From NCBI RefSeq assembly GCF_004217145.1, contig NZ_SHKR01000011.1, positions 1,240,001-1,304,000 of the forward strand: a DNA stretch of 64,000 bases. Reading direction: 5' to 3'. A program made the position numbers and the translations under genes. The stretch is from Kribbella rubisoli (GTDB lineage Bacteria > Actinomycetota > Actinomycetes > Propionibacteriales > Kribbellaceae). How positions within the stretch are numbered: position 1 is the first letter of the stretch; the number at the start of each line of letters is the position of its first letter. This document shows, one piece after another, positions 13,358 through 42,119 of the stretch. A model generated the notes under the pieces. The model did no database searches, was not told the DNA's origin, and saw only the letters and a list, made by a program, of their open reading frames with translations.

Positions 13358-13459
13358 CTGAGGCTCCACCCGAACGACCCCTTACCCGGGCGCCGCACCG
13401 CGACCAGAACCATACAGCCTCCAACCGGTCCCAACGGACCGCACCCCCCGCGTGTTCCC

Positions 13460-13547
13460 GGATCCCCAGGCCATCACAATCGGCCCACCCGGCCCCGTTT
13501 CCGCGTGGGCCGACCGGAAACTGCTGATTGTGATGGCCTGGGGATCC
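13460..13547. repeat. 88-bp palindromic repeat, family 1 copy 1
   Basis: Left arm 13460-13481 and right arm 13526-13547 are exact 22-bp reverse complements; the core CCAGGCCATCACAATC is shared with the copy at 41334-41426. A nested CGGCCCAC/GTGGGCCG stem lies inside the 44-bp spacer. It sits in the space between the divergent tRNA-Trp and aspC promoters, so it is not a terminator. The shared arms and unrelated loops suggest a REP/MITE-like dispersed element. The rest of 13358-13604 shows nothing I can assign. Confidence 0.75.
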
Positions 13548-13604
13548 GCGTCACCTGGTGGTACCGCCAGGTGAGCGACACCGGACCGGTGCCAGGATGG
13601 CCGC

Positions 13605-28959: not shown

Positions 28960-29053
28960 GCTAACGACAGGAGGTAGTCCCCTCAGAGGCCACTGCTCAC
29001 GCTCAGCCGACCATCAGAAGCGCCCGCTACGGGCACTACCTCCTGTCGTTAGC
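28960..29053. repeat. 94-bp palindromic repeat, family 2 copy A
   Basis: Arms of 19 bp, GCTAACGACAGGAGGTAGT (28960-28978) and its exact reverse complement (29035-29053), surround a 56-bp centre containing CACGCTCAGCCGACC. It matches copy B at 29956-30049 in length, both arms and centre core, in the same orientation. The right arm supplies the last five sense codons and the stop codon of the DUF559 gene. Each arm contains AGGAGGT, the full Shine-Dalgarno core. Confidence 0.85.
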
Positions 29054-29902
29054 GGTCCGCTGCTCCAGCGCACTCCGCACGGTCTCGACCACCCAGGCGG
29101 GCTCTCCGATCACCTGCTGATAGGTGAACCGCAATACCAGCCAGCCCGCCGTGACCAGATCGTCGTACCGCCGACAGTCCGCGGCGAACGCCGTCGCGGA
29201 TCCGTGGAACGCGTACCCCTCGGCCTCCAGAGCGAGGCGTGCCGGTCGATGACCGAGATCCACCCGGACTCGGACGCCGTCGATGTGGACAACCACCTGC
29301 GGCTCGAATCCGTCGACCCCGGCGCTGATCAGCAAACTCCGCAGCATGGACTCCAGAAAGCTCTCCGACAGCCTGGTCGCCTTGTCCGCAACCCACACAG
29401 CATTCGGGCGGCCCGGTCCGCGCATCGCAACGGCAGCCGACTCCAGCTCGTCTTTCATCAGCCTGCCGGTGGCGAGCGCAGCGTCGGCGACCGCGAGGGC
29501 TTCGCCGAACGGGAGGATCCGGGCGCAGTCGAGGACCGTTCGCTCCAAGGACGTGAGCCGGTCCGCACGCTCAGCCGTGGAGACCGCAGCCCAATGCAGC
29601 TCGGCCGGGCGCCCGGCTCTCGGTCTGCGGTGCGCGGGCACCGTGATGTGCGGTTTCTCCGGGCGCACCAGCACCGGCAGTCCCCAGGCAATCGCTGCGC
29701 TGGTGTGTGACACGACCCCGTCGTACCCGATCGCGGCAAGGCGGTCCTGTCCGAGACTCGGCAGCCCGTAGACCCCGCGGGCCAGTCGCTCGACCTCACC
29801 CCGCTGCAGCGCGGCCTTCAACGCCCCGGCCGGCACCCCCGACAGCTGGGCAGCCGTCGCACAGCCGCCCAGGCGCGCCAGGATCTCGACAACAGATGTC
29901 AC
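29036..29902 (-). CDS. AbiEi-like / DUF559 (PD-(D/E)XK nuclease-fold) protein
   Basis: 288 residues, GTG start 29902. The N-terminus (VVEILARLGGCATAAQLSG) is a winged helix as in AbiEi-type proteins, followed by an alpha/beta domain with SHTSAAIAWGLP. The C-terminus (about 205-285) is DUF559, a Vsr-like endonuclease fold: VRVDLGHRPARLALEAEGY, then DCRRYDDLVTAGWLVLRFTY. The acidic residues of the D..ExE core are present. Its C-terminal ANDRR and stop are encoded by repeat copy A, and copy B lies 54 bp before its start, so the gene is boxed by the two repeats. DNA cleavage or plain regulation are both possible. Confidence 0.75.
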   Translation of the reverse strand: MTSVVEILARLGGCATAAQLSGVPAGALKAALQRGEVERLARGVYGLPSLGQDRLAAIGYDGVVSHTSAAIAWGLPVLVRPEKPHITVPAHRRPRAGRPAELHWAAVSTAERADRLTSLERTVLDCARILPFGEALAVADAALATGRLMKDELESAAVAMRGPGRPNAVWVADKATRLSESFLESMLRSLLISAGVDGFEPQVVVHIDGVRVRVDLGHRPARLALEAEGYAFHGSATAFAADCRRYDDLVTAGWLVLRFTYQQVIGEPAWVVETVRSALEQRTANDRR

Positions 29903-29955
29903 CCATAGATCGTGCTGGATTCGGCCGGATCCTCGCTGGAGTTGTCCACAGGGCC

Positions 29956-30049
29956 GCTAACGACAGGAGGTAGTGGTGCCGGCGACCTCCGGCCACGCTC
30001 AGCCGACCGCGGCGAGTGCCCGTTCCGGGCACTACCTCCTGTCGTTAGC
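29956..30049. repeat. 94-bp palindromic repeat, family 2 copy B
   Basis: Arms 29956-29974 and 30031-30049 are identical to those of copy A; the centre shares CACGCTCAGCCGACC and a CCCG/CGGG small stem. It fills the gap between the DUF559 gene start and the murB stop (30053). Confidence 0.85.
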
Positions 30050-41085: not shown

Positions 41086-42119
41086 GGCCGCACCAACCCG
41101 AGCCGCCCCCGCAAACTCCCACCCCGTTCAGCCGGTCCGACCAGCCCACGCTCCCGCAGCAACGGCAGCAGTTGATCGGCAATCACCGGCACATCCAGCT
41201 CGAGCGACCCCGGCCGCAGATGTACGCCGTCGGCACCCGCCGCCGCCCACCCCTCGATCAGCCCGACGAGGCCGTCCACGCCGTCGACGTGCGGCCGAAC
41301 CTCGACCGACACCAGCACCAGTGGGCCGGAGTGCCGGATCGCCAGGCCATCACAATCGCCCGGCGCCCGCCCCTCCCCCGCTCCGGACGCCCGAAGGCGC
41401 GTGATTGTGATGGCCTGGAGATCCGGGTCCGGCAACAACACCACCTCCGCGTCAGCGGCTGCCTCCAACGCGTCGGGCGTGTTCGCCCGGATCGCGGTGA
41501 CAGGATGGCCCTGCGGTGGCCGCGGGACGATCGACGGACCCTTGACGCTGAACGTAGGGGACTCGAAGTCGACGTAGTGCAGCTTCTCGCGGTCGACGTA
41601 CCGACCCGTCGACGCGTCGCGGATGACGGCGTCGTCGTCCCAGGAGTCCCACAGTTGCCGGCTCGCGTCGAGGACGTACCGCGCCTCCCGCCAGGTCTCC
41701 GCAGCAGGCGCGGGCTCACGGCGACCAACCACCGCAGCCGCAGCGGCCGACGACGACACCTCCGCGACCCATCCACCCCGTCCGCCCGAGATGTGATCCA
41801 GCGTGGCCACCGAAGCCTGCACGTGGAACGGCTCCGTATGCGTGACGGTGATCGCCGGCAGCAATCCGATCCGCTCCGTCAGCGGCGCGATCCGCGCGGC
41901 CAGCCCCAACGCATCCAGCCGCACGCTCACCCGATCGGGTACGTCGTCCGGCGCCTCCAACGCGTCGACGAGCGTCACGAAGTCGACCCCGGCCGCCTCC
42001 GCCCGCTGCACCGCCCGCAGCGCCAACTCACCGGTGAGGATCGCGCGCGGATCAACCTCGGCCCCGCGCCACGCAGCCGGATCCGCTCCCGCACCATCGA
42101 TCTCGAGACCAACGATCAT
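41082..42119 (-). CDS. LLM-class flavin oxidoreductase containing an in-frame palindromic insertion
   Basis: 345 residues. The LLM core reads ATLDHISGGRGGWVAEVSS, ARYVLDASRQLWDSWDDDAV and FSVKGPSIVPRPPQGHPVT. Residues about 232-262 (PDLQAITITRL to GLAIR) are encoded by a copy of palindromic repeat family 1; the frame is kept and there is no stop. The segment falls in a loop near the C-terminal third. It is shorter than the NtaA group and lacks one of its helices; activity cannot be judged. It overlaps both neighbouring genes by 4 bp. Confidence 0.82.
   Translation of the reverse strand: MIVGLEIDGAGADPAAWRGAEVDPRAILTGELALRAVQRAEAAGVDFVTLVDALEAPDDVPDRVSVRLDALGLAARIAPLTERIGLLPAITVTHTEPFHVQASVATLDHISGGRGGWVAEVSSSAAAAAVVGRREPAPAAETWREARYVLDASRQLWDSWDDDAVIRDASTGRYVDREKLHYVDFESPTFSVKGPSIVPRPPQGHPVTAIRANTPDALEAAADAEVVLLPDPDLQAITITRLRASGAGEGRAPGDCDGLAIRHSGPLVLVSVEVRPHVDGVDGLVGLIEGWAAAGADGVHLRPGSLELDVPVIADQLLPLLRERGLVGPAERGGSLRGRLGLVRP
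41334..41426. repeat. 93-bp palindromic repeat, family 1 copy 2, inside a gene
   Basis: Left arm 41334-41357 and right arm 41403-41426 are 24-bp reverse complements with one mismatch; the core CCAGGCCATCACAATC is identical to the copy at 13460-13547. The 45-bp centre differs. Its 93 bp are a multiple of three, so the host gene's frame is intact. Confidence 0.8.

Follow-up and report, generated by a model that had tools for sequence, protein, structure and literature searches.

A nuclease-type gene between two copies of one palindrome

Immediately downstream of murB in Kribbella rubisoli, a single gene is boxed by two copies of a palindrome, which raises the question of whether gene and palindromes belong together as one element and, if so, what kind of element this is. 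The unit lies in a window of 64,000 nucleotides, by which we mean the whole stretch of DNA that was analysed. Inverted-repeat analysis and the block swap between close species delimit it, and its features are as follows.

28960..30049: whole unit, palindrome/gene/palindrome, 1,090 bp
28960..29053, minus strand: downstream palindrome, type A, 94 bp, giving the last 5 codons and the stop codon of the gene
28960..28978, plus strand: arm GCTAACGACAGGAGGTAGT
28998..29008, minus strand: off-centre core GGCTGAGCGTG, oriented as the gene sense
29035..29053, minus strand: arm GCTAACGACAGGAGGTAGT
29036..29902, minus strand: gene of 288 aa, AbiEi-like body plus EDxHD/Vsr-like nuclease (DUF559/MTES_1575)
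29065..29353, minus strand: nuclease domain, residues 184-279, with E184, D215, E226, H233 and D242 conserved
29378..29902, minus strand: AbiEi-like body, residues 1-175, predicted to bind DNA (PADLOC and Foldseek)
29903..29955, minus strand: 53-bp leader from the upstream palindrome to the start codon
29956..30049, minus strand: upstream palindrome, type A, 94 bp
29956..29974, plus strand: arm GCTAACGACAGGAGGTAGT
29994..30004, minus strand: off-centre core GGCTGAGCGTG, oriented as the gene sense
30031..30049, minus strand: arm GCTAACGACAGGAGGTAGT

The original prediction described two 94-bp repeats with the same 19-bp arms, in the same orientation, around a 288-residue gene, and this anatomy was borne out. 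Both repeats are inverted-repeat elements of 94 bp that share 78% identity; their 19-bp arms are the same, and so are the sequence and orientation of an inner stretch, CACGCTCAGCCGACC. The arm occurs four times in the window, against 0.01 occurrences expected from shuffled sequence. The upstream palindrome begins 3 bp past the murB stop codon and its end lies 53 bp from the start codon of the nuclease gene. At the other end the residues ANDRR and the TAG stop are read from the downstream palindrome, confirming that the repeat encodes the final five residues and stop codon. Judged by open reading frame and translation, the unit is flanked by murB and by a gene for an ABC substrate-binding protein, and it contains no further gene.

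The protein joins an AbiEi-like body to an EDxHD-type nuclease fold

Pfam matched AbiEi_4 at residues 5-48 of the 288-aa protein and both MTES_1575 REase and DUF559 at about residues 183-279, in agreement with the DUF559-type nuclease originally proposed for the C-terminus; the latter two models were each matched by all 16 of the 16 aligned relatives. Two features were absent from the original prediction: the N-terminal AbiEi part, which the PADLOC AbiEi models recovered at residues 12-158 (E 2e-16), and the copies of the same arms, mostly as 94-bp palindromes, at about 20 further places in the genome. The AlphaFold2 model of the protein has a mean pLDDT of 92. In Foldseek searches the N-terminal body matched the AbiEi antitoxin 6y8q (E 5e-6) and also Rv2827c (1zel), and the C-terminal domain matched Vsr (1cw0) as well as the homing endonuclease I-Bth0305I (3r3p; TM normalised to the target, up to 0.80). 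At least 95% of 59 relatives retain E184, D215, E226, H233 and D242, which we read as the EDxHD pattern, together with R213 and R245. No HUH tyrosine transposase domain was found, as Pfam gave AbiEi_4, MTES_1575 and DUF559 only and the fold is that of AbiEi plus EDxHD/Vsr.

AbiEi and Rv2827c bind paired 23-bp inverted repeats in their own promoters, upstream of the genes (PMC7319586), and the EDxHD enzyme I-Bth0305I forms a dimer on a target almost 60 bp long (PMC3943268). Because of these two precedents it is plausible, by analogy, that an AbiEi-EDxHD fusion could read and cut long inverted-repeat sites.

The murB locus across Kribbella

The place downstream of murB was compared in 36 Kribbella species. 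The gene is found there in 19 species, 17 of which have palindromes on both sides; the exceptions are G011, where the upstream palindrome is degraded, and G023, where a broken gene is accompanied by the downstream palindrome only. Four versions of the arms occur among the species, and left and right sides agree in type:

arm GCTAACGACAGGAGGTAGT: G000 (the genome studied here), G029, G005, G016, G009, G008, G030
arm GTACCGAAGAACGGGTAGT: G002, G022, G015, G011, G018, G033, G017
arm GACAGGAAGTAGT version: G004, G036, G026
arm GTGCAGATCGACAGGATGTG: G032

The palindrome pair is missing from species that lack the gene at this place. A gene present here in all relatives without the repeats would have counted against the original prediction; instead, gene-bearing relatives have palindromes of their own version, an outcome in its favour. 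The prediction also named a clean absence with a short duplication as a sign of mobility: G058 has a compact empty site, and a short target duplication was not seen. In one further species (G019, locus L175, about 353-454 downstream of murB) there is one palindrome and no gene.

Between G016 and G022, identity is 0.93 at the end of murB, 0.64 across the unit, 0.94 downstream and 0.98 in the next gene; between G005 and G011 the corresponding values are 0.91, 0.62, 0.91 and 0.98. The units of G016 and G005, both of type A, are 0.90 identical. As judged from these identities, close species differ by a swap of the entire unit, with its edges at the palindromes.

Arm types pair around each gene and follow the protein

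Two close paralogs in the K. rubisoli genome are likewise boxed by arms of their own:

C1:1007742: arms TCGACAGGAGGTGT-like
C1:1894779: arms CGGATCCCCAGGCCATCACAAT

At 61 family loci of the genus, an automatic finder detected an upstream palindrome in 53 and a downstream palindrome in 54, the upstream one ending about 50-60 bp ahead of the start codon in most cases. Arm similarity was 18.3 for the upstream and downstream pair of the same locus, compared with 8.0 for mismatched loci and a maximum of 11.1 in 10,000 permutations, and at least 10 distinct arm types follow this pairing rule. Moreover, protein identity predicts arm similarity, with a Mantel rho of 0.68 that was reached in 0 of 2000 permutations (phylogeny ignored in both tests).

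Two individual loci deserve mention. At L219 (K. catacumbae, G026, C6:100235) the interiors of both flanking palindromes are identical, which suggests a recent duplication or conversion. At L195 a distant DUF559-type gene (30% identity) lies between palindromes at 1026-1116 and 2328-2432 that have AGGGGTCAACCCC in common, and therefore the boxing rule may extend to more remote families.

Outside Kribbella, arm similarity at 41 loci was 12.3 for own pairs versus 8.0. Clear palindrome pairs were present in Nocardioides, Knoellia, Janibacter, Terrabacter and Quadrisphaera, and a convincing pair was absent at about half of the 41 loci. Nocardioides sp. Soil797 carries about ten extra arm copies, and all six of the six inspected are palindromes of about 57-101 bp.

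Arms and spacing are kept while interiors drift

Across Kribbella 79 type A copies were collected, in which the arm-to-arm core measures 90 bp in 54, 91 bp in 17 and 92 bp in 3. Orthologous type A elements have arm identities mostly of 0.88-1.0, and their interiors range from 0.54 to 0.96. Because arm identity stays high while the interiors drift, arms and spacing appear to be under constraint and the interior sequence to be free. An off-centre core, CTGAGCGTG, is nevertheless common to the interiors of type A and of the unrelated type 3; strong cores in units run along the gene direction in 53 cases and opposite to it in 13.

We discarded a structured RNA as the chief constraint: a search of the palindromes against Rfam returned no match, no fixed-position pairing or covariation was found in type A interiors, and interiors fold barely beyond shuffled sequences (z -0.28 and -0.57). 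Given how little structure the interiors have beyond shuffles, the palindromes are more likely read as double-stranded DNA sites than as hairpins. Integron attC sites, suggested by the GCTAAC/GTTAGC ends, were considered and judged improbable, as the arms look too long and unbulged beside those of attC sites and the copies form no arrays.

Variants of type A were noted. A sub-family in which GGACGTAGT on one arm goes together with a TACGTA-like stretch immediately inside that arm comprises L092, L098, L102, L122, L134, L145, L151 and L153. One copy near a contig start (L012 757-861, the same place as L148) is 105 bp rather than 94 bp long and has perfect arms.

Solo palindromes track the cognate gene

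In the 8.6-Mb genome of K. rubisoli, about 20 more places carry the arm at three or fewer mismatches, and nearly all of them are 94-bp palindromes. The original prediction had anticipated that hundreds of unlinked copies would speak against it; there are about 20 per genome and their counts track the cognate gene. Solos of types A, B and 3 number 5.0, 4.6 and 10.2 in genomes that also hold the cognate gene, compared with 0.9, 0.7 and 1.5 in those that do not, all being lower bounds since they derive from strict patterns in partly draft genomes. The excess is significant for each type (Mann-Whitney p 9e-4, 3e-5 and 2e-5 for A, B and 3, phylogeny ignored). Solo arms form a species-specific consensus in G023, G017 and G003; that of G023 is GTCCCGCTCGACAGGAGGTAGTCG and that of G017 is GGTACCGAAGGACAGGAGGTAGT, which is also the type of one boxed gene of G017.

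In G029 (K. kalugense) there are eleven type B palindromes and no type B boxed gene was found; it may have been lost or missed. Within the window, two solos at 13459-13548 and 41335-41425 belong to the unrelated type 3, with arms CGGATC..CAGGCCATCACAAT, and their cognate boxed gene (G000:C1:1894779) lies beyond the window.

One solo site, C7:477279 between convergent genes, was followed across species. In nine species it is a compact empty junction (with an 11-bp gap in eight). It holds type A in G000 and G009, type B in G012 and G018, arms near the type of its own gene in G014, and other types in G003, G013, G020 and G021; in G017 and G026 the palindrome is of a type that also boxes one of the species' own genes. 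Only empty or solo states were seen there, never a boxed gene. A second place differs between G000 (type A) and G033 (type B), and in a third spacer several species carry type A, with a type 3 palindrome close by in G013. The solos have the look of insertions; no target-site duplication was seen by eye at the filled and empty junctions compared.

Where type A copies lie by gene 3′ ends (n = 93), the arm supplies the stop codon in 34 and the median distance is 4 bp; the neighbouring genes come from a purpose-made gene caller, and three elements fall inside its calls, which are possibly miscalls. G022 and G011 keep intact type A arms at the orthologous solo site C1:1308419, and the gene that each has next to murB is now of type B. 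The constraint on arms at solos exceeds what is expected of simple selfish debris. A search for recent copying of whole palindromes turned up only a few unit pairs. Movement of solos would seem to be old or rare, because solo interiors are as unlike within one genome (identity 0.65) as between genomes (0.64).

Alternative explanations

Could the palindromes simply be operators? An AbiEi-type autorepressor with a scattered regulon would use the upstream palindrome as its operator and the solos as operators or roadblock terminators, the nuclease domain being a tuning device or incidental. The paired 23-bp repeats in the promoters of AbiEi and Rv2827c (PMC7319586) offer a precedent, and the position of the upstream palindrome about 50-60 bp before the start codon at most loci, the retention of arms over drifting interiors, and the many solos adjoining gene 3′ ends (median 4 bp) are what a regulator might leave. 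Autorepression, however, needs no second palindrome at the 3′ end of the gene, and it does not account for five nearly invariant residues of catalytic type, for a solo site that is empty in nine species and filled with several different types in others, or for the swap of whole units at palindrome edges. We therefore regard this explanation as unlikely, although it is the strongest of the alternatives.

Less likely again is a cassette moved or exchanged by ordinary recombination, with solos as scars of gene loss between flanking palindromes, in the manner of solo LTRs. The flanking palindromes form a direct repeat, the G019 murB site has a single palindrome and no gene, and K. catacumbae (G026) has an identical palindrome pair, all as such a process would have it; yet solos are far more numerous than units (about 20-fold for type A in this genome), and the sole solo site compared across species was only ever empty or solo and never held a boxed gene.

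A marking of self and non-self, in which the nuclease attacks DNA unless protein-occupied palindromes identify it as resident, is consistent with the PADLOC AbiEi matches and the constrained arms but is very improbable, as about 20 copies in 8.6 Mb are too few to protect a genome and no modification gene is evident adjoining the unit. Ordinary bidirectional terminators or RNA hairpins unlinked to the gene are the least probable: the arms fold stably as RNA and sit near stop codons, but the sequence itself, and not pairing alone, is conserved and private to gene type, and the interiors have almost no structure beyond shuffles and no Rfam match.

Relation to known systems

RAYT genes have their own repeats on their flanks, repeat numbers vary with the presence of the cognate gene, and the repeats beside orthologous RAYTs may differ (PMC3686654, PMC3116915, PMC3733652). 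The analogy to REP-RAYT pairs drawn in the original prediction holds in anatomy (a single-copy gene between its own palindromes), in private pairing (one repeat class per gene) and in dispersal (extragenic copies that track the gene), and fails in enzyme and sequence tag. RAYTs are HUH tyrosine transposases, in contrast to the AbiEi-EDxHD nuclease found here; REPs carry a GTAG/GTGG tag, whereas the edges here are GCTAAC, GTACCG, CGGAT and others; and the present palindromes span about 90-105 bp, have long arms and a CTGAGCGTG core, and number about 20 rather than hundreds. Lacking both an HUH transposase and the GTAG tag, the unit is not a member of REP-RAYT.

The AbiEi antitoxins of type IV toxin-antitoxin systems share the N-terminal fold (6y8q, 1zel) and bind inverted repeats upstream of their own gene. 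The unit departs from them in its fused nuclease, its second palindrome downstream, its dispersed copies and its arms, which are about 56 bp apart instead of 3 or 13 bp; an AbiEii (DUF1814) toxin gene is not evident among neighbours judged by open reading frame and translation. The EDxHD homing endonuclease I-Bth0305I and Vsr have in common with it the nuclease fold, the conserved E, D, E, H and D and, at a single chromosomal place, block replacement, which on sequence comparison is compatible with homing into a gene-less allele; here, however, there is no intron or intein, cognate palindromes both box the gene and are dispersed, and the DNA-binding body is AbiEi-like. MITEs and insertion sequences are likewise short inverted-repeat elements between genes with empty sites in relatives, but the present element has no transposase of known type, no target duplication was seen, and its interior is free while its arms have stayed conserved over long times. 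In the open-access literature searched, we found no relevant description of DUF559 with palindromic or inverted repeats or of Kribbella palindromes.

A proposed self-associated repeat system

The explanation that we favour, and consider somewhat probable, is that of a repeat system associated with its own gene, operating as REP-RAYT does but with a different enzyme. It rests on the anatomy, the same-type pairing around each gene, the match between arm type and protein, the solos that track the gene, the empty and differently filled sites, the whole-unit swaps and the constraint on arms and spacing. In this scheme both inverted arms of a palindrome are most likely bound together by the AbiEi-like body, and each gene lineage would have a private arm specificity. 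The EDxHD domain, Vsr-like and of homing-endonuclease type, would cut either a target or the palindrome and its vicinity, in the latter case possibly at the conserved off-centre CTGAGCGTG core. Repair or copying after the cut might then have two outcomes: the boxed gene would replace a rival version at the same place, in a homing-like manner, and solo palindromes would be seeded at other gene junctions, chiefly at stop codons. We infer binding and cleavage, and also that the protein itself would drive insertion. Several observations weigh against this explanation: the lack of a visible target duplication, solo interiors as unlike within a genome as between genomes, the type A arms kept in G022 and G011, the type B palindromes of G029, and solo arms more constrained than selfish debris would be.

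Taken more broadly, it is about an even call whether this is a widespread actinobacterial element, in which an AbiEi-EDxHD nuclease both spreads and maintains its private palindrome between genes and replaces rival units at shared places, as a nuclease-driven counterpart of REP-RAYT of independent origin. It resembles a self-spreading DNA system of a kind not described before. If true, bacteria would have a second, independent way to keep short palindrome families tied to a dedicated gene, and one protein would unite DNA-binding and nuclease folds that are each already known. Because many arm types are now matched to their proteins, the pairs constitute a natural code of protein-to-site recognition. 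This opens to test the origin of short repeats, the reason why their ends stay conserved, and the role of the abundant AbiEi_4/DUF559 genes of actinobacteria.
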